From Bacteroidota bacterium (lineage in GTDB: Bacteria; Bacteroidota; Bacteroidia; UKL13-3), in contig CANHGM010000016.1 of assembly GCA_947460345.1 (NCBI GenBank), positions 1 through 64,000 on the forward strand: a stretch of 64,000 bases of DNA. Direction: 5' to 3'. The notes beneath the pieces were generated by a model. That model was given only the letters and a program-made list of their open reading frames with translations. It was not told the origin of the DNA and did not search any database. This document shows, in pieces, positions 779 to 42,054 of this stretch (the stretch's first letter is position 1; each line of letters opens with the position of its first letter). Both the position numbers and the translations under genes were made by a program.

Positions 779-1819
779 TCATTTCCTCAAAAACCTATTC
801 ACATCTATTTCTTTACTTAATGGCATATGGCCTGCAAGCACTTGGGCTAGGTGTTGGGCAAAATAGGGTGCCAACAAAATGCCTTTGGCCCCAAGGCCGT
901 TAAACACCCCTAACTTTGGGTGCTGCGGGTGAAAGCCTATCACGGGTCTTCTGTCGGTGATGGCTGGGCGTATGCCTGCTTTGTGGGCTACCACCTCAAA
1001 AGGTAGGTTTATTACTTTTTGTACTTTCAGCATCAGCTCTTCTTTGCCTTCTGCTGTGGGTTGGTTGTCTATTTGGTCCCAGTTATAGGTTGCTCCAACT
1101 ATATAGGTGTCGTTGCCTTGTGGTAATATATATACCCCACTTTGGATGATATAATCAGCTTTAAAATTTTCTACCTTAATGGTGAGCACCTCTCCCTTGG
1201 CAGGTTTAAAAGGTATATAATCGAACCACGGGTTGTTTTGTGCTTGCACTCCTTCGCAAAAAAACAGGTAATCTGCTGTGATGTTTTGGTAGGTAACGCC
1301 TTGTGGGGTATGCTCTACATGGGCATAGTTAAACAACTCTGGGATATATACTAACTGCGGATGTTGTTGGGTGCGGCATTGGTGTAAAAGTGTGTGGGTA
1401 CGCACATAGCCTGAGCCCGTAAACCACTGCCCGCCATAGGGTTGGATGATATGTGGTGAGGCCGGTGGGCGTTGCTGTATCCAAGGCATATACTTGGCAT
1501 CTGTGGCTTTGGTAGCCCAGTTGTTTTGATGCTCTATGCTGTCAAACAACATATATAAATCTAAAGGATGAATAAGCGGGGTGCGGTATTTGGCTTGAAG
1601 TTGGGTATAGAACTGTTGGCATGCGGGCAGCAGCTGTGCAGCCATCCATGAGGTAGTGATGCGTTTGGCAATGATGGGGTTATATACCCCCGCAGCAACA
1701 AGACTTGAAGAAGTAGTAGGGGCTTGGTCGTATATATATACTTTATACCCTTGCAACAGTAGTGTTTCAGCCAGCACAGTGCCTGCTATACCCTGCCCTA
1801 CTATAATAACCGATTTCAA
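779..1819 (-). CDS. FAD-dependent oxidoreductase (DAO family)
   Basis: The 346-residue protein opens with a dinucleotide-binding fold: GxGxxG at residues 8-13 and an acidic residue at 31 at the end of the second strand. The C-terminal GLGAKGILLAPYFA segment fits the FAD-closing motif of the D-amino-acid oxidase/glycine oxidase/MnmC-C group. The AAGVYNPI stretch near residue 45 is also typical of MnmC-C-like relatives. Such enzymes oxidise amines or amino acids with FAD; the substrate cannot be read here. No signal peptide, so probably cytoplasmic. It starts 5 bases after the transketolase subunit gene, so the two are probably co-transcribed. Confidence 0.8.
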   Translation of the reverse strand: MKSVIIVGQGIAGTVLAETLLLQGYKVYIYDQAPTTSSSLVAAGVYNPIIAKRITTSWMAAQLLPACQQFYTQLQAKYRTPLIHPLDLYMLFDSIEHQNNWATKATDAKYMPWIQQRPPASPHIIQPYGGQWFTGSGYVRTHTLLHQCRTQQHPQLVYIPELFNYAHVEHTPQGVTYQNITADYLFFCEGVQAQNNPWFDYIPFKPAKGEVLTIKVENFKADYIIQSGVYILPQGNDTYIVGATYNWDQIDNQPTAEGKEELMLKVQKVINLPFEVVAHKAGIRPAITDRRPVIGFHPQHPKLGVFNGLGAKGILLAPYFAQHLAQVLAGHMPLSKEIDVNRFLRK

Positions 1820-1824
1820 ATCAA

Positions 1825-2781
1825 CTAGTTTTTTCGGGCTATAGCTTTTAGGGCTGCCTCAACTATGTTTACGGTCTCTAAACCATATTTTACAAGCAGT
1901 TGTTCAGGAGTTCCACTTTCGCCAAAGCTATCGTTCACAGCTACATACTCTATTGGTTTTGGTTTGTTAAGGGCTAGTAATTGAGCAATGCTGTCGCCCA
2001 AACCGCCGTTGCGTTGGTGCTCTTCAGCGGTAACCACACATCCAGTTTTAGCCACCGATTTCAATACCGCTTCGTTGTCGAGTGGTTTGATGGTGTGTAT
2101 ATTGATAATCTCTGCGTTGATGCCTTTTTCAGCGAGTATATGGCCTGCTTCTATGGCTTTCCACACAAGATGGCCTGTAGCAAAAATGCTTACGTCAGTG
2201 CCCTCGTTTAGCATTAACGCTTTTCCTATAATAAATTCTTGGTCAGGAGTAGTGAAATTAGGCACTACGGGTCTGCCAAAACGTAAATATACAGGCCCTT
2301 CGTAGTTGGCTATGGCTAGGGTAGCTGCTTTGGTTTGATTATAGTCGCATGGGTTTATTACGGTCATGCCCGGAAGCATTTTCATGAGCCCAATATCCTC
2401 TAATATTTGGTGGGTGGCTCCATCTTCACCCAAAGTAAGACCGGCATGTGAAGCACATATTTTTACATTCTTACCTGAGTAAGCAACGCTTTGGCGAATT
2501 TGGTCGAACACCCTGCCAGTAGCAAAGTTAGCAAAAGTGCCTGCAAAAGGTATTTTACCCCCTATAGTAAGCCCTGCACTCATCCCTATCATATTGGCTT
2601 CAGATATACCACATTGTATAAACCTGTGAGGAAACTCTTTTTGGAAAGCATCCATTTTTAAAGAACCTGTTAAATCGGCACAAAGGGCTACCACATTGGA
2701 GTTGTTTTTGCCTGCTTCTAAAAGGCCTGCACCAAAACCTGAACGGGTGTCTTTGTTATCGTATATGGTAAAGTTTTTCAT
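1825..2781 (-). CDS. Transketolase, C-terminal subunit
   Basis: At 318 residues this matches the half-size transketolase subunit carrying the pyrimidine-binding and C-terminal domains. Motifs seen are LCADLTGS, GISEANMIGMSAGL (the conserved glutamate that activates thiamine diphosphate) and GLTLGEDGATHQ. With an N-terminal partner carrying the diphosphate-binding domain it would move two-carbon units between sugar phosphates in the pentose phosphate pathway. The partner is usually the adjacent gene in split systems, but here the neighbours are a VWA protein upstream and an FAD oxidoreductase downstream. DXS-like activity is less likely given the length. Confidence 0.88.
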   Translation of the reverse strand: MKNFTIYDNKDTRSGFGAGLLEAGKNNSNVVALCADLTGSLKMDAFQKEFPHRFIQCGISEANMIGMSAGLTIGGKIPFAGTFANFATGRVFDQIRQSVAYSGKNVKICASHAGLTLGEDGATHQILEDIGLMKMLPGMTVINPCDYNQTKAATLAIANYEGPVYLRFGRPVVPNFTTPDQEFIIGKALMLNEGTDVSIFATGHLVWKAIEAGHILAEKGINAEIINIHTIKPLDNEAVLKSVAKTGCVVTAEEHQRNGGLGDSIAQLLALNKPKPIEYVAVNDSFGESGTPEQLLVKYGLETVNIVEAALKAIARKN

Positions 2782-2795
2782 TTATATATATGAAT

Positions 2796-4160
2796 TTATA
2801 ATTTGATTAATGTTGATTGGGCACTGGTAATACTGAAGTCTTTCTCAAACGTAGCCGAAGCCTTGGTTTGATGCTTGTATCTGTATATAATTTTATAAGG
2901 CTTGTCTAAGGTAGGTTGTAAAGAAATAACCTTTTGTCTTAGGTTTACATCAAGGTCGCAAACCCATTCTAGCTTGTTGTTGTTCCACTGATATATAGCC
3001 CCATACAGGTCAATGGTGCTTACTAGGCTTAGTTTGCCTGGCGTTGGTATTTCTATTTTGGTGGTTTTAAGAGGCTCAATTGGAATCTCTTTTAAGTATA
3101 TACGTGGCAGGGTAAGTATTTCTAAATCATAGTTGCCAATGATATACCTCCGGTTGGTGTTAAAGTCTTGCTCGGTAAGGGTGTGGTGCTCTCCTGCTTT
3201 TTTTACTAGGCATTCTACCCGTTCGTTGGGTCCTATTCCGTTTACTATCAGTTGTAGATTGCTTTGAGGCACATCTATAGGGATGGTGTTGTGTTTGCCT
3301 GCTTGTAGTTCTACATTCTCTTTGGTTACAGGCGGCATGGTATGAACCACAATTTTATATTTGATGGTGGGTTCAATGGTGAGGGTATCAGGTAGGTTTC
3401 TGTCGTTAAGGGTATGTATAAAGTTATATTCTAATCCGCCTTTGTCTTGGTTATAAAACGTCATGCCCACATTGCTTTCGGTGGCTGAGCCATAGGCATC
3501 AATTAAGTTTACTTGGCATGTTGTGTTGTTCATGGCTTGTGAGATTACCACATTCATCACTTTTTGGAAACCCTCTTCTGTTTGCACATCGTAATAACGA
3601 CCCACGCATTGGTAAGCTGTTTTAAAATCAACACCGCCATCAAGTCCAATAACAAAAGGTTTGAGTATAACACCTGCTTTCTGAAGGGCTTCGCTCACAG
3701 CACATGGGTCGCCTTGGCATTCTTCTATTCCATCGGTGATGAGTATAAGTATATTGCGGGCACCAGGGTCTTTAGGAAAATCGTTAGCCGCTTGCAACAG
3801 CGAATGAGCTATAAGCGTATATCCTTTTGGGTTTATAGATTTTATTTTTTGAATGATGAGGTCGTTATTGCCTTTGGCAAAGGGTACCTCCAGTTTGGTG
3901 TCTTTACAATCATGGTATGATGTAGGTTGGGTGTGGCCAAAAACCCTCAAGGCAATTTCGAGTTTGTCTACATCTTTTAAGCTATCTACTATGTGGGTGA
4001 GTAGTTTTTTAGCTGCATCTATACGGGTGCCCTTGTTTAACTTGGCATACATAGAGCCAGAGCCGTCAAGCAAAAAAAGAATTCGAGTGGTTTTTTTCTG
4101 GGCAGTAATGTGGTTGGTATAGAACAAGCAACAAACAAAGAAAACTAGTATTTTATGCAT
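2796..4160 (-). CDS. Secreted von Willebrand factor A domain protein
   Basis: Residues 1-21 form a signal peptide ending TAQ. A VWA domain follows, with the metal-binding DGSGS at 32-36, a conserved Thr in GYTLIAHS, and ITDGIEEC later in the fold. The remaining 240 residues are beta-rich with no motif I recognise; repeated short beta stretches suggest carboxypeptidase-regulatory-like or Ig-like modules. VWA proteins bind other proteins through a coordinated divalent metal. It is predicted periplasmic or surface-exposed and lacks a T9SS sorting domain. It is 14 bases upstream of the transketolase subunit and may share its transcript; no functional link is evident. Confidence 0.8.
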   Translation of the reverse strand: MHKILVFFVCCLFYTNHITAQKKTTRILFLLDGSGSMYAKLNKGTRIDAAKKLLTHIVDSLKDVDKLEIALRVFGHTQPTSYHDCKDTKLEVPFAKGNNDLIIQKIKSINPKGYTLIAHSLLQAANDFPKDPGARNILILITDGIEECQGDPCAVSEALQKAGVILKPFVIGLDGGVDFKTAYQCVGRYYDVQTEEGFQKVMNVVISQAMNNTTCQVNLIDAYGSATESNVGMTFYNQDKGGLEYNFIHTLNDRNLPDTLTIEPTIKYKIVVHTMPPVTKENVELQAGKHNTIPIDVPQSNLQLIVNGIGPNERVECLVKKAGEHHTLTEQDFNTNRRYIIGNYDLEILTLPRIYLKEIPIEPLKTTKIEIPTPGKLSLVSTIDLYGAIYQWNNNKLEWVCDLDVNLRQKVISLQPTLDKPYKIIYRYKHQTKASATFEKDFSITSAQSTLIKL

Positions 4161-31975: not shown

Positions 31976-33424
31976 ATGACCGGAGAAAAAATTATAAAGA
32001 CCTTTGAAGATGTTTGGGGAGATTGTTTAGCTATTATAAAAGACAATATACCTGAACAGAGTTTCAAAACATGGTTTGTTCCTATAAAGCCTATAAAGCT
32101 TGAAGAAAAAGTTCTAACTATTCAGGTTCCGAGTCAATTTTTTTATGAATGGCTTGAGGAGCATTACGTTGATTTGTTAAGAAAAACCTTGAAATCTATT
32201 TTAGGAGCTGGTTCAAGGTTAGAATATAATATCATTGTTGAAAATGGACAAGGTCATTCAAGTCCTTATACTATAAATATGCCCGCTGTTAGTAATGGTA
32301 AAAACGATAATATAGGCGTATCCTTACCAATGAATTTAGGTGGTGCAATTAAAAATCCTTTTATTATTCCAGGTTTAAGAAAAGTAAACATAGACTCTAA
32401 CTTAAACCCAAACTATACTTTTGAAAATTTTATTGAGGGTGATTGTAATAGACTAGCTCGCTCTGCAGGATTTGCAGTAGCTTCTAAACCCGGTGGAACT
32501 GCTTTTAATCCATTGATGATTTTTGGTGGGGTTGGTTTAGGCAAAAGCCATTTAGCTCAAGCAATTGGTAATCAAATTAAAATTAACAACAAACAAAAAG
32601 TTGTTCTGTATGTTACTGCTGAAAAGTTTATGAACCAATTTGTAGATTCAGTAAAAAATACGAATACAAATGATTTTGTAAATTTTTATAATTATGTTGA
32701 TGTGTTGTTGGTTGATGATGTTCAATTCTTTGCAGGTAGAAGCAAAACACAAGAAATTTTCTTTCAAATTTTTAATCAAATTCATCAAGCAGGTAAGCAA
32801 ATTATATTAACATGTGACAGACCTCCAAAAGATCTAAAAGATATGGAGGAACGATTATTAACACGTTTCAAATGGGGTTTACAAGCTGATTTACAAATTC
32901 CGGATTTTGAAACTAGAATTGCAATCTTAGAACAAAAAATGTACAACGATGGTATTACATTACCTCGAGAGGTTGTTGAATATGTTGCTCATAATATAAG
33001 TTCAAATATAAGAGAATTAGAAGGTGCTTTAATATCTTTATTGGCTCAGTCTTCTATGAATAGAAAAGAAATTGATTTAGATCTTGCAAAGCAAATGATG
33101 AAGAATTTTGTCAAAAACTCTACTAGAGAAATATCAATTGACTTTATACAAAAATTAGTGTGTGACTTTTTCTCAATTCCTATTGATTTAGTAAAATCAA
33201 AAACTAGAAAAAGAGAGGTTGTTCAAGCTAGACAAATTTCAATGTATTTTGCAAAAGAAATGACAAAAGCTTCATTAAAAAACATTGGTTCTCACTTTGG
33301 AAATAGAGACCATAGCACAGTTATCCATGCTTGTCAAACTGTTAACGACCTAATGGAAACAGATAAAAGATTTAAAGGAGATGTAGAGGAGCTAACTAAA
33401 CGAATCAAAATAAGTACCTTATAA
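31976..33424 (+). CDS. dnaA: Chromosomal replication initiator DnaA
   Basis: The 482-residue protein has all DnaA domains: an N-terminal oligomerisation domain (FEDVWGDCLAIIKDNIPEQSFKTWF), the AAA+ core with Walker A GGVGLGKSH near 183 and Walker B VLLVDDVQFF, and the domain IV signature NRDHSTVIHACQTV near the C-terminus. It binds TTATCCACA-like boxes at oriC and melts the origin. A full-consensus promoter precedes it and a strong terminator follows. Confidence 0.98.
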   Translation: MTGEKIIKTFEDVWGDCLAIIKDNIPEQSFKTWFVPIKPIKLEEKVLTIQVPSQFFYEWLEEHYVDLLRKTLKSILGAGSRLEYNIIVENGQGHSSPYTINMPAVSNGKNDNIGVSLPMNLGGAIKNPFIIPGLRKVNIDSNLNPNYTFENFIEGDCNRLARSAGFAVASKPGGTAFNPLMIFGGVGLGKSHLAQAIGNQIKINNKQKVVLYVTAEKFMNQFVDSVKNTNTNDFVNFYNYVDVLLVDDVQFFAGRSKTQEIFFQIFNQIHQAGKQIILTCDRPPKDLKDMEERLLTRFKWGLQADLQIPDFETRIAILEQKMYNDGITLPREVVEYVAHNISSNIRELEGALISLLAQSSMNRKEIDLDLAKQMMKNFVKNSTREISIDFIQKLVCDFFSIPIDLVKSKTRKREVVQARQISMYFAKEMTKASLKNIGSHFGNRDHSTVIHACQTVNDLMETDKRFKGDVEELTKRIKISTL

Positions 33425-33441
33425 TCAAAATAAGAATATAT

Positions 33442-33470
33442 AAAACCCATGCATCTATGTGTGGGTTTTT
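33442..33470 (+). terminator. dnaA terminator
   Basis: AAAACCCA (33442-33449) pairs with TGGGTTTT, followed by a run of T; a classic intrinsic terminator 18 bases past the dnaA stop. Confidence 0.75.
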
Positions 33471-33502
33471 TTTATTATGTTTGTTTTTAAATCATCTAAT
33501 CT

Positions 33503-34399
33503 ATGCCTGTTTTTAAAAACATAAAAAGTTTTTTAACCTTTTCTAAGTCTGAAAGGCTGGGTATTGCTTTATTGTTGATTATTATTTCGGTACTCGCTTT
33601 TTGTCCATACTTATATAATTTATATTTTTTAAAAACTAGGCCTGAAATTATTTTAGATAAAAATTTATTATCAGAGATTAGCAAAATTGAATCGCCTGTT
33701 AAAGCTAATCATCACTATGATGAAAAAATTATTAAAGATTCAGTTTATAATTTAAAACCCTTTTTTTTTAATCCTAATAATATATCTGATAATGATTGGT
33801 TAAAATTAGGCTTAAAAGCCTATCAAATAAAAATAATTAAAAACTACACACAAAAGGGTGGAATTTTTAAGACAAAAAAAGATGTATTAAAAATATATTC
33901 TATAAAGTCTGAATGGTTTTCTATGATAAAACCTTTTATACTTTTACCCGATACTATAATAAAAGAGAATCCTATTATAGAAAAAAAGCTTTTTAAGCGC
34001 TTAGAGACAGCTTTAGACATAAATGTTATAGATTCTTCGGTGTTAGAGAAACTACCTGGTATTGGGCCTTATTTAGCAGGAAAAATAATAAAATATAGAA
34101 ATAAATTGGGTGGGTTTTACAATAAAAATCAAATTTTAGAAATTAACGGTATGAGAAATGACTTGTTTGTTAAGTTTGAAAACAAAATTGATGTTTTGTC
34201 ACCTATAAGATATATAAATATAAACTCTTGTAAAGTAGAAGAGCTTGAAAACCATCCTTACTTAAAAAAGAAATTAGGAAATATATTGTTTCAATATATA
34301 AAACAAAGAGGAAAAATTTACAATGCTAATGAGTTAAGTAATATTCCTATAATGAAAGATAGTACACTAATCAAATTAAAACCTTATTTAAGATTTTAA
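33503..34399 (+). CDS. Membrane-anchored ComEA-like helix-hairpin-helix protein
   Basis: The 298-residue protein has one N-terminal membrane helix (ERLGIALLLIIISVLAFCPYLY, about 16-38), then helix-hairpin-helix modules: GGIFKTKKDVLKIYSIKSEWF, the best one LEKLPGIGPYLAGKIIKYRNKLGGFYNKNQILEINGM near 180-216, and a degenerate third. ComEA-like domains bind double-stranded DNA; with the anchor on the outside it could take part in DNA uptake. The gene ends exactly where the convergent citrate synthase gene ends. Confidence 0.8.
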   Translation: MPVFKNIKSFLTFSKSERLGIALLLIIISVLAFCPYLYNLYFLKTRPEIILDKNLLSEISKIESPVKANHHYDEKIIKDSVYNLKPFFFNPNNISDNDWLKLGLKAYQIKIIKNYTQKGGIFKTKKDVLKIYSIKSEWFSMIKPFILLPDTIIKENPIIEKKLFKRLETALDINVIDSSVLEKLPGIGPYLAGKIIKYRNKLGGFYNKNQILEINGMRNDLFVKFENKIDVLSPIRYININSCKVEELENHPYLKKKLGNILFQYIKQRGKIYNANELSNIPIMKDSTLIKLKPYLRF

Positions 34400-35707
34400 T
34401 TAAGCACCAAGCTTTTGTTTAATCCATTCTGTAGTTACTGATTTTGGTCTTTCAATTGGTGAGCCTAAAACTCTATCCCAACACAATGACGCTAAAACAC
34501 CCAAAGCTCTACTTACTCCAAACAAAACAGTATAAAAATCTTCTTCCACCATTCCATAATGTTTTAAAAGCACACCTGAATGTGCGTCAACATTTGGCCA
34601 AGGGTTTTTAACTTTTCCTAGTGATTCCAAAATGGGAGGAACAACTTCATATACATTCCAAACAGTATTTACCATGTCATCATCTGGCATGTGCCTTTTT
34701 GCAAATCCCATTTGAGATGTGAATCTTGGATCTGTTTTTCTAAGTACTGCGTGACCATAACCAGGAACAACTTTACCTTCAGAAAGGGTTTGTTTTACAT
34801 ATGTAGCTATTTGTTCTTTTGTCGGTCTTTTTGTTTGCAAAGACTCACACATCGATTCTAACCATCTTATTACTTCTTGGTTAGCTAATCCATGCAGTGG
34901 GCCTGCTAATCCATTCATTGCGGCTGCAAATGCTAAATATGGGTCGCTAAGTGCTGAACCTACTAAATGGGTTGTATGTGCCGATACATTTCCTCCTTCA
35001 TGGTCGCTATGGATTGTTAAATATAATCTCATAAGTTCTGAAAACTCAAAAGAATCATAACCTAACATATGTGCAAAGTTACCAGCCCAGTCAAGTTTTG
35101 GATTTGGCTCAATGTGTTGGTCGTTTTTATAAATTCTTCTGTATATATAAGCTGCTATTCTTGGTAGTCTAGCAATCAAATTCATAACATCTTCATAGGT
35201 AGGATCCCAATATTCTTTTTTGTTTATTCCACTTCTATATGCAGCAGCAAAAACACTTTCTGTTTGCAAAGCCATAATTGCTGTTGTAAACTGAGTCATT
35301 GGATGAGTAGTTTTTGGAAGTGCATCTAATACTTTAAACACATGGTTCGGAACAATTGACCTACGAGCCCAATTGTTCGTAAGATTTTGAACATCCTCAT
35401 TACTTGGCAATTTACCCATTAACATTAAGTAAAAAATTGCTTCTGGCATTGGCTCATTACCTCCTTCAACAAAATGTTGTAAATTGTCTCTCAATTCAGG
35501 AATTGAATACCCTCTAAATCTTATACCTTCGTTTGAGTCTAACAAAGATGTCTCTGTAATTAAGCCTATCATACCTTTCATACCAGAATATACATCTTCC
35601 ACGGTATATGTACCTAACTGTTCATTTCCTTTTGTTTTTATCAACTCTTTTGTTTCAATTGCTATTGGAGTTGCTGTTTCAATAAACTTATTTTTGAGGG
35701 TGTCCAT
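34400..35707 (-). CDS. gltA: Citrate synthase, eukaryotic/mitochondrial-like type
   Basis: The 435-residue protein contains HSDHEGGNVSAHTTHLVGSALSDPYLAFAAAMNGLAGPLHGLANQEV (positions around 235-285 hold the catalytic His residues) and VPGYGHAVLRKTDPRF. The form with HEGGNVSAHT and GLAGPLHGLANQEVL is closer to mitochondrial-type citrate synthases than to the hexameric bacterial type. It condenses oxaloacetate and acetyl-CoA at the entry of the TCA cycle. Stands alone with a short intergenic region to pheS. Confidence 0.92.
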   Translation of the reverse strand: MDTLKNKFIETATPIAIETKELIKTKGNEQLGTYTVEDVYSGMKGMIGLITETSLLDSNEGIRFRGYSIPELRDNLQHFVEGGNEPMPEAIFYLMLMGKLPSNEDVQNLTNNWARRSIVPNHVFKVLDALPKTTHPMTQFTTAIMALQTESVFAAAYRSGINKKEYWDPTYEDVMNLIARLPRIAAYIYRRIYKNDQHIEPNPKLDWAGNFAHMLGYDSFEFSELMRLYLTIHSDHEGGNVSAHTTHLVGSALSDPYLAFAAAMNGLAGPLHGLANQEVIRWLESMCESLQTKRPTKEQIATYVKQTLSEGKVVPGYGHAVLRKTDPRFTSQMGFAKRHMPDDDMVNTVWNVYEVVPPILESLGKVKNPWPNVDAHSGVLLKHYGMVEEDFYTVLFGVSRALGVLASLCWDRVLGSPIERPKSVTTEWIKQKLGA

Positions 35708-35803: not shown

Positions 35804-36808
35804 TTAACTAAATTGTTTTAACATTCTAAGGTCATTATCAAAAAATAATCTTAGGTCGTTTATTTGATATTTTAACATAGCTATTCTTTCTATACCCATA
35901 CCAAAAGCATAACCACTATATTTATTTGAATCTATATTGTTATTTTCTAAAACAGATGGGTCTATCATACCACATCCCATTATTTCAACCCAACCTGAAT
36001 GTTTACATATATTACAACCACTACCCGAACAAATAAAACATGTTATATCCATTTCTGCACTTGGTTCTGTAAATGGAAAATAACTAGGTCTAAACCTCAG
36101 CTTTACATCTTTATTAAACATTTGCTTAGTAAATTCGAACAAAACAAGTTTTAAATCTGCAAATGAAACATTTTTATCAATATATATGCCTTCAACTTGG
36201 TGAAAAAAACAATTAGCTCTAGCTGAAACAGCTTCATTTCTATAAACCCTTCCTGGCATAATATATCTTAATGGTGGTTTTTCACTTTCCATAATTCTAA
36301 CTTGTACAGAGCTAGTGTGAGTTCTAAGTGCATGTTCTTCACTTATAAAAAAAGTATCTTGCATATCTCTTGCAGGATGGTTTTCAGGAAAATTTAAAGC
36401 AGAAAAATTATGCCAATCATCTTCTATTTCAGGTCCATCACTTAAAGAAAAACCTAGTTTTTGAAATATTTCAATAATTTGATTTTGGATAATGGATAAA
36501 GGGTGTTTTGATCCATTATTAAAACCATTTGAAGGGAGTGTTGAATCGTTTAAACTAAATGTTTGATTTACTTCGAATAAAAGTTTGTTTGTTTCAAAAA
36601 TAGATTCAGCAATGTTTTTTAAATTATTAATTTTAAAACCTATTTCTTTTCTTAATTCTGGAGATACTTCTTTTATAAAATTAAATAACAATGATAGCTC
36701 ACTTTTCTTGGTTAAATAGTTTAACTTAAATAATTCTAAATCTTCATAAGTTTTAATATTTATGACGTCTAATTCAGATTTTATTTTATTAATTTTATCT
36801 TCTAACAT
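35804..36808 (-). CDS. pheS: Phenylalanine-tRNA ligase alpha subunit
   Basis: The 334-residue subunit has the N-terminal coiled-coil (LSLLFNFIKEVSPELRKEIGFKINNLK), then class II motifs: motif 2 region PGRVYRNEAVSARANCFFHQVEGIYID and motif 3 GYAFGMGIERIAML. It charges tRNA-Phe together with the beta subunit (pheT), which is not in the window. Upstream lies the very AT-rich gap described separately. Confidence 0.96.
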   Translation of the reverse strand: MLEDKINKIKSELDVINIKTYEDLELFKLNYLTKKSELSLLFNFIKEVSPELRKEIGFKINNLKNIAESIFETNKLLFEVNQTFSLNDSTLPSNGFNNGSKHPLSIIQNQIIEIFQKLGFSLSDGPEIEDDWHNFSALNFPENHPARDMQDTFFISEEHALRTHTSSVQVRIMESEKPPLRYIMPGRVYRNEAVSARANCFFHQVEGIYIDKNVSFADLKLVLFEFTKQMFNKDVKLRFRPSYFPFTEPSAEMDITCFICSGSGCNICKHSGWVEIMGCGMIDPSVLENNNIDSNKYSGYAFGMGIERIAMLKYQINDLRLFFDNDLRMLKQFS

Positions 36809-37215
36809 TATTTCTATTTTTAGTTTGCAAATATTCAGATTTATGAACAGAATTAAATAATATTATTTAATTAATTTATTATTCTTATTAATGTATTAGT
36901 AGTGTTGATATATAGAACAATTTTATTTAATAAATATTGACATTTTATTTATACACCAGTTTTAAGCATCAATTAACATCTATTATATCTTTTATTAATT
37001 TAATTATTAATCTTTTATATTTTTTATTCCACAGTGTTAATTTTATTATATTATTATGTTTGTATGTATCTTAATATTCTAATTATTGTGGATTAACTAT
37101 TTTTGTTAGCTAATAAACTATGTATAATTTTATACTATTTTGTATTTTTTTTTTTATTAACATTTTATTAAAGTTCTACTCCTTTTTTCAATATTTTTTC
37201 AATATTTATTAACAC
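36809..37215. other. Very AT-rich intergenic gap, candidate replication origin
   Basis: About 400 bases without any credible gene; 36841-37200 has 53 G/C of 360 by my hand count (about 15%). TTGTGGATTA (37086-37095) differs from the DnaA-box consensus complement TTGTGGATAA by one base. TATTCCACA (37025-37033) is a two-mismatch candidate. Together with two parS sites 4.4 kb away and nearby dnaA and mnmG, an oriC here is plausible but unproven. Confidence 0.35.
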
Positions 37216-38826
37216 TTAAAAAGGTACTTCATCTATGTTTATTTTAATATTTTCACTATCTATTCCTTCTTTTATTAATATTGAATCTTTATATAAATAA
37301 ACTTTTTCTGGTTCTATTTTATCTTTATAGTATCCCATATCCCATTCATTATTAAAATTAATATCTTCTATTATCTTTATTTTATAACTATCTGGAAGTA
37401 ATTGTTTAAAACTAATCACTCTACTTTCTTTGATTATTTCAGATCTTATTATATTGTTTTTGCTATTAACCAATTGTAATAATTTTCTTGAATTATTATT
37501 ATTTATTATTTCTATTTTTAAATTACTATACTTTTCTTCTATTTCAGTATTAAATTCTATGATATTTGAATCTATTCGTTGGTCATATACATCTATAAAT
37601 GATCCCTTTTTAAATACAAACATATATTTTGAACCAGGTTTCCAATCAAGTTTTATTCTTAATTTTGTCATTTCATTATCAAGGAAATAAAAACCATCAT
37701 CTATTTTTACTTTAATTGAGTCTATATATAAATCAACTAGTTCTTTCTTAAATAGATATATAGGGTTTGAAAGCCTTATTTTTACTGTATCAAATAGATT
37801 AAATTTTTCTGAACTTATATTAGTATTATTAAATTTAATATCTCTTCTAATATATGTATTGTTCATATGAAGAGTTGTAAGGTCCATAAAATATATATCG
37901 TTTAAATATAAATCAAAATGCCCATCTTGCATATTTGCCATGGGTGAAAACCATGTTATCGTGTCTGCACTTTCTCCAGGGAAAATTAAAGTATATGCTT
38001 CCTCAGTAAATAGATTATTATCAATTAGTTTTTTCTTACAATTTTTAGGAGTAACAACAAAATTAAATACACCATACTCATTACAATAAAAAGTATTTAC
38101 TTGTGGTTTTTCTATTGATATATCTCTATATATATATATATCTCCAATTGATGTATTATTTTCAATAATTATATCATTCTTTTTAAATCCCATCTCTTCA
38201 TTTCCATCTAATATATTATTTTTATTTAAGTCTCTAATTATTAATATCTTATAATTATTTTTTTTAATAGATTTAAATCTATACATACCATCATCATTTA
38301 TTTTAGATATATATATTGGTTTTTGTTTCCATATTATACTATCTATTTCATCATCTGTTTTTATATTTTCATATAAATAAGCAAAGCAATTATTATAATT
38401 TGTTTCTAATGTATTAATTATTTTACCTTTTATTTCTATTGTATCAAGATCTTTTCCTGTTGAAAAAATATATGTTTCATCTTTTGAAACGTTGTTTTCA
38501 TTAATATCAACAACACTATTATTTAAATCTATTGAATAAGTTGTATTTTGTAACAATGTATCAAAATCTATTTCTAATTTATTCCTATTTATTTTTATTT
38601 TATACTTTGTTTGATTTGGATTAATTATTACATTTTCTTTATTTTTTAATGTTATATTTTCATTATAGATAAATATTATTTTTTTATCTTGTACTAATGT
38701 ACTGAAATTATTTATAGATGTTTTTTTTAATTTGGGTCCTACTGTGTCTTTTTCTCCTCCATCTGGATTAACAATACTTGCACAAGATGATATTATAATT
38801 ATTAATAATATATTAAATACTTTCAT
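37216..38826 (-). CDS. Ig-like (Big_5) lipoprotein conserved in Bacteroidota
   Basis: The protein starts with a lipoprotein signal (MKVFNILLIIIISSCASIVNPDGG) and matches the general plan CAS-x-x-P-x-GG-x-KD-x2-GPKL of a Bacteroidota family with an N-terminal Big_5-type Ig-like domain. Further beta-rich segments follow; one, NDDGMYRFKSIKKNNYKILIIRDLNKN, has the carboxypeptidase-regulatory-like pattern. Function unknown; probably on the outer membrane. Codon composition is extremely AT-biased (Ile, Asn, Lys, Tyr rich). Overlaps the methyltransferase gene by 14 bases, so co-translated with it. Confidence 0.7.
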   Translation of the reverse strand: MKVFNILLIIIISSCASIVNPDGGEKDTVGPKLKKTSINNFSTLVQDKKIIFIYNENITLKNKENVIINPNQTKYKIKINRNKLEIDFDTLLQNTTYSIDLNNSVVDINENNVSKDETYIFSTGKDLDTIEIKGKIINTLETNYNNCFAYLYENIKTDDEIDSIIWKQKPIYISKINDDGMYRFKSIKKNNYKILIIRDLNKNNILDGNEEMGFKKNDIIIENNTSIGDIYIYRDISIEKPQVNTFYCNEYGVFNFVVTPKNCKKKLIDNNLFTEEAYTLIFPGESADTITWFSPMANMQDGHFDLYLNDIYFMDLTTLHMNNTYIRRDIKFNNTNISSEKFNLFDTVKIRLSNPIYLFKKELVDLYIDSIKVKIDDGFYFLDNEMTKLRIKLDWKPGSKYMFVFKKGSFIDVYDQRIDSNIIEFNTEIEEKYSNLKIEIINNNNSRKLLQLVNSKNNIIRSEIIKESRVISFKQLLPDSYKIKIIEDINFNNEWDMGYYKDKIEPEKVYLYKDSILIKEGIDSENIKINIDEVPF

Positions 38827-39709
38827 TTTTTTTAAATATATATAGCTGACTAGAATATTCTTTTGAATATATTGCTTTTAAATGGGAAATAAATCCCCAA
38901 AACATACCATATATAAAATGAAATTTATTTCCTTTATGCATTTCACTTCTTATACTAACATAATATGAATCAAAAACCATTGGTTTTGTATCTATTAAAA
39001 TTAAACCATGTTTTAAAAATAATTTTTCTACACTTTTTTTATTGAAATGCCATATATGTCTTGGTACATCATATGCATCCCAATTTTCTTTGTATTTTAA
39101 AGCTTCATACGAATTATTATTGGGTAATGCTATTAATATGTATCCTTCTTCTTTTATGCTGTTCTTTAAGCCTTCTATTGTCTCTTCAATATTATACACA
39201 TGCTCTAATACATGCCACAGTGTTATGATATCATATTTATTTTTATTTGTATTGAAGAGCTCTTTATTTTCATAAACATTTATATCATATCTTTTTTTAA
39301 CTTCTCTTCTTGCTTCTTCAGAAATATCCATTCCGTTTGTAAGCCAACCATTTTCTTTACAGTATGATAAAAAATTACCTAAGCCACAACCATAATCTAA
39401 TATATAGCCGTTTTTATTACCATTCAGTTTATTTATTATTTTTAGCTTCCATTTTAAGTTTAAGTTTCTAATAGTTCTATACAAGCTTATTATAAAACTT
39501 TTTTTATTGTCTGTATGTGAGACATATTTATCACTTAAGTAATATTTACCAGCTTCTAATAAAGTAGGTCTGTTTTGAGTATATTGAAAACTGCATTCTT
39601 GACAACATACTATATTAAATTTTTCATTAGATGATACTTTGTCTATGCATTCATAAAGCTTTAAGCTTTTTAAAGATCCACAAACAATGCATGTATTTAT
39701 ATTTTCCAT
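38813..39709 (-). CDS. SAM-dependent methyltransferase with N-terminal zinc finger
   Basis: An N-terminal zinc finger (CIVCG at 8-12, CCQEC at 35-39) is followed by the SAM-binding motif LDYGCGLGNFL near 103-113 and HVLEHVYN near 165. This layout occurs in methyltransferases associated with sugar or lipid modification. The substrate is not predictable. It lies 4 bases after mnmG on the same strand and overlaps the lipoprotein gene by 14 bases. Confidence 0.78.
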   Translation of the reverse strand: MENINTCIVCGSLKSLKLYECIDKVSSNEKFNIVCCQECSFQYTQNRPTLLEAGKYYLSDKYVSHTDNKKSFIISLYRTIRNLNLKWKLKIINKLNGNKNGYILDYGCGLGNFLSYCKENGWLTNGMDISEEARREVKKRYDINVYENKELFNTNKNKYDIITLWHVLEHVYNIEETIEGLKNSIKEEGYILIALPNNNSYEALKYKENWDAYDVPRHIWHFNKKSVEKLFLKHGLILIDTKPMVFDSYYVSIRSEMHKGNKFHFIYGMFWGFISHLKAIYSKEYSSQLYIFKKNESI

Positions 39710-39713
39710 TTTA

Positions 39714-41582
39714 TTATTTTCCTAAGTTTACCATTAAAACCTGAATATCTGATGGACTTATTCCGCTTATTCTTGATGCTTGTCCTAGTGTCAAAGGTTT
39801 TATTTTTTTAAATTTTTCTTTAGCTTCGCTAGACAAGCTTTTAATCTCATCATAATTATAATCTATTTTAATTTTATAATTTTCAAGTTTTTCAATTTTT
39901 TCTACTAGTTCTTTTTCTTTTTTAATATAGCTATCATACTTTAATAGTATTTCAGCTTCATTTATTGAATCTTTTTTATACTTTGTTAATTCTGATTTAA
40001 TGTTGTTATTTATATTTATTAAATTTTGTATATTAATTTGTGGTCTACTTATTAAAGAATTTATTTTTATTTTTTGATTGATAGTTGCAGTACCAATTTC
40101 AGTTAGATATTCATTAATTTCTATTGGATCAACGCTTGTTTTTTCTATCCAATTTTTAATTTCTTCTGCCTCTTTAATTTTTTTATTTACAATTTTTAAT
40201 CTACTATTAGACGCTAAACCTATATTATTTGATAGTTCTGTTAACCTGATGTCTGCGTTATCTTGTCTTAATAATATTCTGTATTCTGCTCTAGATGTAA
40301 ACATTCTATATGGTTCTTCTGTTCCTTTGTTAACTAGGTCATCAATTAATACACCTATATATGCTTCTGATCTTTTTAATATAAATGGCTCTTTGTTATT
40401 TATTTTTAAATGCGAATTAATTCCTGCTAATAAACCTTGACATGCTGCTTCTTCATATCCTGTTGTTCCATTTATTTGACCAGCAAAATACAAAAATTTA
40501 ATTTTTTTTGTTTCTAGTGTCAGATGTAGTTGAGTAGGTTGAAAATAGTCATATTCTATTGCATATCCAGGTCTAAACATTTTCGAGTTTTCAAAACCTG
40601 GTATTTGTTGAATTGCTTTCTTTTGAATCTCATACGGTAAGCTAGTTGAAAAACCATTTACATAAATTTCTACTGTATCCCAACCTTCTGGTTCAACAAA
40701 AATTTGATGTCTGTCTCTTTCAGCAAATCTATTTATTTTATCTTCTATTGATGGACAATATCTTGGACCTAGTCCTTTTATTGTACCTGAATACATGGGA
40801 GATTCATTAAATCCGGTTTTTAAAATTTCGTGAACTTTGTTATTAGTATAAGTTATCCAACAGCATTTTTGATTTTTTATAGGTTTGATTTTTTCTAAAT
40901 ATGAAAATTTTTCAGGTTTTTCATCTCCATTCTGAACCTCCATTTTTTCATAATTTAAACTTCTACCATCAATTCTTGGTGGTGTTCCTGTTTTCATTCT
41001 TCCTGTTTGAAAACCGTTTTTTATTAAGGATTCTGTAATTCCTATTGAAGATTTCTCACCAATCCTACCTCCGCTCATTTGCTGTTTCCCAATATGTATT
41101 TGCCCATTTAAAAAAGTTCCATTTGTTAATATTAAAGATTTACAATAGAACAGTATTCCCATACTTGTTTTAACTCCTTTTACTTCCTCTTTTTCTATTA
41201 TTAAATCAACTACATTGTCTTGCCAAAAACTTATATTGGGAATTGATTCTAAAATTTTTCTCCACTCTAAACTGAATTTAACCCTGTCGTTTTGTGTTCT
41301 AGGACTCCACATCGCTGGCCCCTTAGATTTATTCAACATTCTAAACTGTATGGTTGATGCATCAGAAACAATCCCACTATAACCTCCTAGTGCATCTATT
41401 TCTCTAACTATTTGTCCTTTTGCAACACCTCCCATAGCGGGATTGCAACTCATTTGAGCAATTTTACCCATATCCATTGTTATTAATAAAACTTTGGATC
41501 CAAGGTTAGCAGCAGCAGCAGCAGCTTCACAACCGGCATGCCCAGCACCAACAACTATTATATCAAATTTGTTTTCTTGCAT
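39714..41582 (-). CDS. mnmG: tRNA uridine 5-carboxymethylaminomethyl modification enzyme MnmG
   Basis: The FAD-binding site GAGHAG is at residues 12-17 of the start I choose (MQENKFDIIVVG, 41582). A longer reading frame to 41606 would add MLFHVKHK, which is just the parS sequence translated, so I reject it. Further signatures are MSCNPAMGGVAKGQIVREIDALGG, CPSIEDKI and a C-terminal tRNA-binding region (RISGISPSDIQVL). With MnmE it modifies the wobble uridine of certain tRNAs. Downstream is a methyltransferase gene 4 bases away. Confidence 0.95.
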   Translation of the reverse strand: MQENKFDIIVVGAGHAGCEAAAAAANLGSKVLLITMDMGKIAQMSCNPAMGGVAKGQIVREIDALGGYSGIVSDASTIQFRMLNKSKGPAMWSPRTQNDRVKFSLEWRKILESIPNISFWQDNVVDLIIEKEEVKGVKTSMGILFYCKSLILTNGTFLNGQIHIGKQQMSGGRIGEKSSIGITESLIKNGFQTGRMKTGTPPRIDGRSLNYEKMEVQNGDEKPEKFSYLEKIKPIKNQKCCWITYTNNKVHEILKTGFNESPMYSGTIKGLGPRYCPSIEDKINRFAERDRHQIFVEPEGWDTVEIYVNGFSTSLPYEIQKKAIQQIPGFENSKMFRPGYAIEYDYFQPTQLHLTLETKKIKFLYFAGQINGTTGYEEAACQGLLAGINSHLKINNKEPFILKRSEAYIGVLIDDLVNKGTEEPYRMFTSRAEYRILLRQDNADIRLTELSNNIGLASNSRLKIVNKKIKEAEEIKNWIEKTSVDPIEINEYLTEIGTATINQKIKINSLISRPQINIQNLININNNIKSELTKYKKDSINEAEILLKYDSYIKKEKELVEKIEKLENYKIKIDYNYDEIKSLSSEAKEKFKKIKPLTLGQASRISGISPSDIQVLMVNLGK

Positions 41583-42054
41583 TTTGTGTTTCACGTGAAA
41601 CAACACACGTAAAAAAATCTATATGTTTCACGTGAAACAGATCTTCGAGTTTTTGATTTTCTTCAGCGGTCATTTGTTTTTTTTCTTTAGGTTTTTTGTC
41701 GTTAAATCCAATTAGGTGCAATATGCCATGAATTAACACCCTACACATTTCGTTATTGAAACTAACACTATACTTATTACTATTATACATTACTGTTTCA
41801 TATGAAATAAATATATCGGCATCTAAAACATCAGTCTTTTCAGATAAGTTAAAGGTTAAAATATCTGTATAATAATTATGATTTAAGAAGTCTATATTAA
41901 TTTTTAATATCTCATCATCTGAACAAAAGGCAATATTAACATTAATTTTTTTTGCTGTTTTATATTCAGCCAAAGCTGAAAGTAACCATTTTTTTAGTAC
42001 TAATTTGTTTTTAATTTTAAGATTAGTACTGTTATTATAAAATGTAATACCCAT
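41563..42054 (-). CDS. ybeY: Endoribonuclease YbeY (rRNA maturation factor)
   Basis: The 163-residue protein has the metal-site segment HGILHLIGFNDKKP near residue 117; the third His of the E. coli motif is Asp here, as often in Bacteroidota. YbeY is a metal-dependent endoribonuclease needed for 16S rRNA 3'-end processing and ribosome quality control. Its last 25 residues (LFHVKHIDFFTCVVSRETQNARKQI) are dominated by two translated parS sites and are probably not required for catalysis. It overlaps mnmG by 20 bases. Confidence 0.88.
   Translation of the reverse strand: MGITFYNNSTNLKIKNKLVLKKWLLSALAEYKTAKKINVNIAFCSDDEILKINIDFLNHNYYTDILTFNLSEKTDVLDADIFISYETVMYNSNKYSVSFNNEMCRVLIHGILHLIGFNDKKPKEKKQMTAEENQKLEDLFHVKHIDFFTCVVSRETQNARKQI
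41587..41602. other. parS site (copy 1)
   Basis: TGTTTCACGTGAAACA, a perfect match to the consensus ParB-binding site, inside the 3' end of ybeY and just before the chosen mnmG start. Confidence 0.9.
41624..41639. other. parS site (copy 2)
   Basis: A second perfect TGTTTCACGTGAAACA, 37 bp away from copy 1 centre to centre, also within the ybeY coding sequence. Confidence 0.9.

Follow-up and report, generated by a model that had tools for sequence, protein, structure and literature searches.

A candidate chromosomal replication origin between pheS and a lipoprotein-like gene in an uncultured family of Bacteroidia

The gap between pheS and the lipoprotein-like gene

The window analysed here, a stretch of 64,000 bp, comprises bases 1–64000 of contig C16 (68,643 bp) from a 3.0-Mb genome in 76 contigs. 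Between pheS and a lipoprotein-like gene, which are co-directional, it holds a gap of 407 bp (36809–37215) that a preliminary description had put forward as a candidate replication origin. The G+C content of the gap, given there as about 15%, is 15.0% by count: the AT-rich unwinding stretch expected of an oriC is present. On its own this low G+C is less telling, since the genes adjoining the gap at 37–39 kb themselves reach merely 19–21%. The convergence of genes that had been held against an origin does lie at 34.4 kb. The genes and sites around the gap are as follows.

31976..33424, plus strand: dnaA (family searches); 3.4 kb from the gap, in the source genome only
35804..36808, minus strand: pheS, left neighbour, kept in the family (NCBIfam or Pfam family searches)
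36809..37215, no strand: candidate oriC in the pheS/lipoprotein-gene gap (low G+C, kept gap size, ATYMACA density, and a GC3-skew minimum at the equivalent gap in relatives G040 and G060)
37216..38826, minus strand: lipoprotein-like gene, right neighbour, kept in the family (Big_5 and DUF2141 matches, lipoprotein-like N-terminus)
38813..39709, minus strand: methyltransferase-like gene, kept between the lipoprotein gene and mnmG
39714..41606, minus strand: mnmG (gidA) (sequence and homologues)
41587..41602, no strand: parS TGTTTCACGTGAAACA, inside the ybeY/mnmG coding overlap
41624..41639, no strand: second parS TGTTTCACGTGAAACA, inside ybeY

The nearest named relatives of mnmG are all Bacteroidota (Chitinophagaceae, Hymenobacter and others), and ybeY was likewise identified from its sequence and homologues. 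Both exact parS sites (window 41563–41639) fall in coding sequence, at the 3′ part of ybeY and the 5′ end of mnmG, where they read LFHVKH and VVSRET.

The lipoprotein–gap–pheS arrangement is kept in 34 genomes of the family, a number that includes the window's own genome and counts only gaps that could be delimited; a few further loci fall outside it, the contig being truncated or the pheS open frame unrecognised. The gaps measure 345–474 bp and have 15–30% G+C. The order mnmG – methyltransferase – lipoprotein – gap – pheS recurs in G040, G060, G017, G009 and G021. PheS identity within the family is 55–66%, and the retention of a gap of ∼400 bp between co-directional genes at such divergence argues that the gap is functional. 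In the other families of the class that we looked at, pheS has no lipoprotein neighbour. In Hymenobacter fodinae a dense cluster of DnaA boxes lies just beyond mnmG – methyltransferase – lipoprotein, and because this is the same place, the origin site may be older than the family.

The preliminary description gave the distance to dnaA correctly (3.4 kb), but its use of that proximity as an argument for an origin does not hold: in relatives dnaA is found on other contigs or far from the gap, as in G021, and the proximity is therefore peculiar to the source genome. A dnaA-adjacent oriC of the Bacillus or Pseudomonas type, the ancestral arrangement, is not what the family displays; the linkage occurs in the source genome only, where a rearrangement probably brought dnaA to within 3.4 kb of oriC. 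The block of dnaA, a helix-hairpin-helix gene and gltA (31976–35707) that stands next to pheS in the window is absent from that place in the relatives examined.

DnaA-box-like sites and trio-like repeats

Searches for standard DnaA boxes gave little. With up to one mismatch to the strict box TTATCCACA allowed, 16 sites were found in the 64-kb window against 23 expected, and the gap itself is without any strict TTATCCACA box. Whole-genome scans of the source genome for TTATNCACA and for TTWTNCACA pairs returned frequencies at or below those of the reversed control, and no better origin candidate was evident among the matches listed.

The type of box was therefore not presupposed: orthologous gaps were collected from the family and their words scored against dinucleotide shuffles. 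The words enriched over the family gaps were ATGTCGCA, ATCCACA, ATTCACA, ATCAACA and ATTAACA. Four of the five are DnaA-box cores of the form AT-Y-M-ACA; ATGTCGCA is an unrelated motif. In a second, unbiased scoring of 7-mers, 11 other genera were represented by the gap of a single genome each and the window's genome was excluded; ATCCACA, ATCAACA, ATTCACA and ATTAACA again came near the top, and ATGTCGCA was recovered here too. The top words learned in this way have six matches in the window gap against 0.63 in shuffles, none of 3000 shuffles reaching six; for ATYMACA the gap holds six sites against a mean of 0.56 in dinucleotide shuffles (0/5000 reach six). The comparison with a shuffled background that the preliminary description had proposed comes out in favour of the gap when the box sought is the degenerate type of this family.

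Counted per 450 bp, ATYMACA is denser in the gap than anywhere else in the 68.6-kb contig (6; mean 0.41). The equivalent gap likewise ranks first among 450-bp stretches in three relatives, with 8 sites in G021 (441 kb, mean 0.45) and 6 each in G060 (400 kb, mean 0.39) and G017 (200 kb, mean 0.32). It is tied for the top in G040 and below the top in G009, and several relatives' gaps contain just two ATYMACA sites, which is within chance. The box-like sites of the window gap, together with a short repeat run beside the first of them, are these.

36894..36902, plus strand: minimal DnaA-trio-like run TAT TAG TAG (3′-GAT GAT TAT-5′), abutting the first DnaA-box-like site
36903..36911, minus strand: DnaA-box-like ATATCAACA, two mismatches, aligning with the TGT[GT]NAT column that is conserved among relatives
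36970..36978, plus strand: DnaA-box-like CAATTAACA
37025..37033, plus strand: DnaA-box-like TATTCCACA, left arm of an inverted pair
37035..37043, minus strand: DnaA-box-like AAATTAACA, right arm of the inverted pair
37087..37095, minus strand: DnaA box TAATCCACA, one mismatch to TTATCCACA, within TTGTGGATTA at 37086–37095
37154..37162, plus strand: DnaA-box-like TTATTAACA
37206..37214, plus strand: DnaA-box-like TTATTAACA

Two of these sites, the one-mismatch box in TTGTGGATTA and the weaker TATTCCACA, had already been picked out in the preliminary description, and both are where it placed them. The inverted pair reads TATTCCACA-G-TGTTAATTT in the window gap; such pairs of box-like sites occur in 15 of the 34 family gaps against 1.0 in shuffles, a count that is optimistic because the pattern was shaped on the alignment.

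In several relatives the DNA just upstream of dnaA contains TTATTCACA, TTATTAACA, TTATCAACA or TATTCCACA. DnaA autoregulation sites are usual upstream of dnaA, and the position of these copies suggests DnaA autoregulation; if they are indeed autoregulatory, they lend independent support to the same degenerate box. A further DnaA-box cluster (G021:C1:148938–149512) lies upstream of a gene that, judging by its N-terminal residues, we take to resemble ribonucleotide reductase. This cluster was set aside as an origin, being likely a regulatory site.

The basal unwinding system (BUS) of bacterial origins consists of DnaA-boxes and DnaA-trios, the latter with the consensus 3′-GAT-5′ and found beside one or two DnaA boxes (PMC8287927, PMC10721633). 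A TGT[GT]NAT column is common to the gaps of relatives, in many of them preceded by TAA/TAG repeats, as in TAATAATAATAG-C-TGTGAATT, and a second weak box follows the column, as in TGTGAATATGGTGGAAAA. The longest trio run beside a box averages 3.47 over the gaps against 1.97 in shuffles, the largest of 100 shuffle means being 2.47. In the window TAT TAG TAG abuts TGTTGATAT, while the runs of relatives at the equivalent place are longer (TAATAATAATAG). For the BUS program, a DnaA box may have no more than two mismatches and must be accompanied within 16 bp by three or more NAN trios (PMC8287927). The window's ATATCAACA with GAT-GAT-TAT fits this rule minimally, and the pattern is so loose that it is expected by chance in AT-rich DNA. 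In relatives the order of box, spacer and trios is that of the BUS. The strand and direction of their trio arrangement are also as in Bacillus subtilis. The family thus resembles BUS origins in having an AT-rich intergenic region with several DnaA-box-like sites and, in relatives, boxes that stand beside TAG/TAA trios across a short spacer; it differs in that its boxes are degenerate (TTATYMACA, often ATTAACA) and in that the window gap has no consensus TTATCCACA and a minimal trio run.

GC skew and parS sites

Raw GC skew is governed by gene direction, and its minimum in the window, at 61.6 kb, was discarded as such. For this reason we used GC3 skew, the difference G minus C at the third position of codons in open reading frames, with all counts made on the plus strand. 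Over 400 kb of G040 the cumulative GC3 minimum lies at 1119231, next to the last base of the pheS match (1119230); over 400 kb of G060 the minimum, at 416374, is the boundary between the lipoprotein gene and the gap. For G009 the minimum is 182843 when read by position and otherwise follows a gene that ends at 181395, with the gap at 179.4–179.8 kb (1.6–3 kb off). The contrast between genes to the left and to the right was reached in none of 5000 permutations in each of the three genomes. GC3 skew was uninformative in G017. In G021, a single contig of 3.24 Mb, the minimum lies at ∼28–38 kb and the gap at 3.0825 Mb, ∼185 kb away. No box cluster was found at the 28–38 kb minimum of G021, and since the gap is the top cluster there, the offset possibly stems from a recent rearrangement. 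Coincidence with the skew minimum, expected of an oriC and named as a check in the preliminary description, therefore holds at the gap for G040 and G060, to within 1.6–3 kb for G009, and not for G021.

In the source contig the GC3 signal is weak: it has a local minimum at 41.6 kb, at mnmG, and the first 6.6 kb run the opposite way. Part of that stretch (window 1001–4000) has 41–44% G+C against ∼32% around it and a GC3 skew opposite to that of its neighbours; it possibly contains acquired or highly expressed genes.

The twin parS sites that the preliminary description placed 4.4 kb from the gap are indeed there, at 41587 and 41624; both are exact, and the source genome has no other exact parS. 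Exact parS occurs in 10 of 40 genomes, the window's own included, and in eight of the nine relatives mnmG lies within the 1.5-kb flanks of the site, the exception being L014 (G030). Sites with one and two mismatches lie near mnmG in G060, G017, G009 and G021. The argument from parS and mnmG thus extends across the family. Clusters of parS, together with GC skew, have been used to place origins in gut bacteria (PMC10197239). The present locus is like those parS-marked origin domains in having a parS pair 4.4 kb from the gap and beside mnmG, and unlike them in having one or two exact parS sites only, embedded in ybeY/mnmG coding sequence (PMC10197239).

A candidate oriC and its alternatives

Taken from the sequence, the conservation of the gap, its motif enrichment, the skew minimum at the orthologous gap of relatives and the parS linkage lead us to regard 36809–37215 as very probably the chromosomal replication origin (oriC). 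The comparative data turn a case that the preliminary description had called suggestive into a strong one. What we infer beyond this is DnaA binding, melting and firing. DnaA would bind the approximately seven DnaA-box-like sites of the degenerate type TTATYMACA and load from the box at 36903–36911 onto the adjoining trio-like strand; the flanking AT-rich DNA would then melt and admit the replicative helicase, and the new origins would be segregated by ParB bound to the parS pair 4.4 kb away.

An oriC of this kind is already known, given reports of Bacteroidetes origins far from dnaA – predicted origins are reported to be commonly so placed (PMC4755523, citing DoriC) – and of parS clusters that mark origins (PMC10197239). 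The family agrees with the predicted Bacteroidetes origins in that oriC and dnaA are unlinked in relatives such as G021; the window differs in that its dnaA is 3.4 kb away and in the flanks of the gap, pheS and the lipoprotein gene, which run in the same direction (PMC4755523).

It is improbable that the gap is instead a datA- or DARS-like cluster, at which DnaA binding serves regulation or titration, and that the true origin is another site no more than tens of kilobases away, such as one nearer parS. Such a cluster would be in keeping with the skew minimum ∼185 kb away in G021 and with the offset in G009, which is towards mnmG. It fits poorly with the exact coincidence of GC3 minimum and gap in G040 and G060, with the AT-richness of the gap and the trio-plus-box elements of relatives, and with the fact that no other 450 bp in the 200–441 kb around the gap (G021, G060, G017) is as rich in boxes.

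Still less credible is that the gap is merely a long AT-rich promoter or leader of pheS with no role in replication. Rfam at the gathering threshold matched just one tRNA and nothing in the gap, word enrichment picked out DnaA-box cores together with an unknown motif, and the skew minimum of relatives is at the gap; the promoter reading draws on the position of the gap directly upstream of pheS, which needs expression either from the gap or by read-through from the lipoprotein gene. The gap may also serve as the pheS promoter, which is compatible with its being oriC. Chance, that is an AT-rich gap with accidental weak boxes, is barely tenable: strict boxes are not enriched in the window and the neighbouring genes are likewise very AT-rich, but the comparative data already contradict it, with a motif set from other genomes that no shuffle matched (6 against 0.63), a gap that has kept its length and position throughout the family, and the skew coincidence.

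If the gap is oriC, the origin is located to within a few hundred bases for a family of uncultured Bacteroidia in which dnaA gives no guide and in which the DnaA boxes are degenerate (TTATYMACA), so that standard box searches miss them. Its placement would permit growth-rate estimates from metagenome coverage and a correct chromosome start.

The gaps of genera g2, g3, g6 and g11 and of one g8 genome carry a further motif, AWTGTCGCAHT, usually in two copies (for example G017:C4:227339 and 227369; G060:C11:416507 and 416602; G001:C22:12007 and 12071); the window gap has none. Whole genomes contain about ten copies each, near the control level. In G017 and G060 the genes next to the second AWTGTCGCAHT pairs pointed to no shared function, and a literature search for TGTCGCA at origins yielded nothing relevant among the titles listed; we know of no protein that binds the motif. 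That the family's origins use, besides DnaA, a second, undescribed origin-binding factor at AWTGTCGCAHT, one that the window's lineage has lost or replaced, strikes us as slightly short of an even call. The pair in sister genera offers a concrete lead to an origin regulator, and in G001 one copy of the motif lies ∼145 bp upstream of dnaA.
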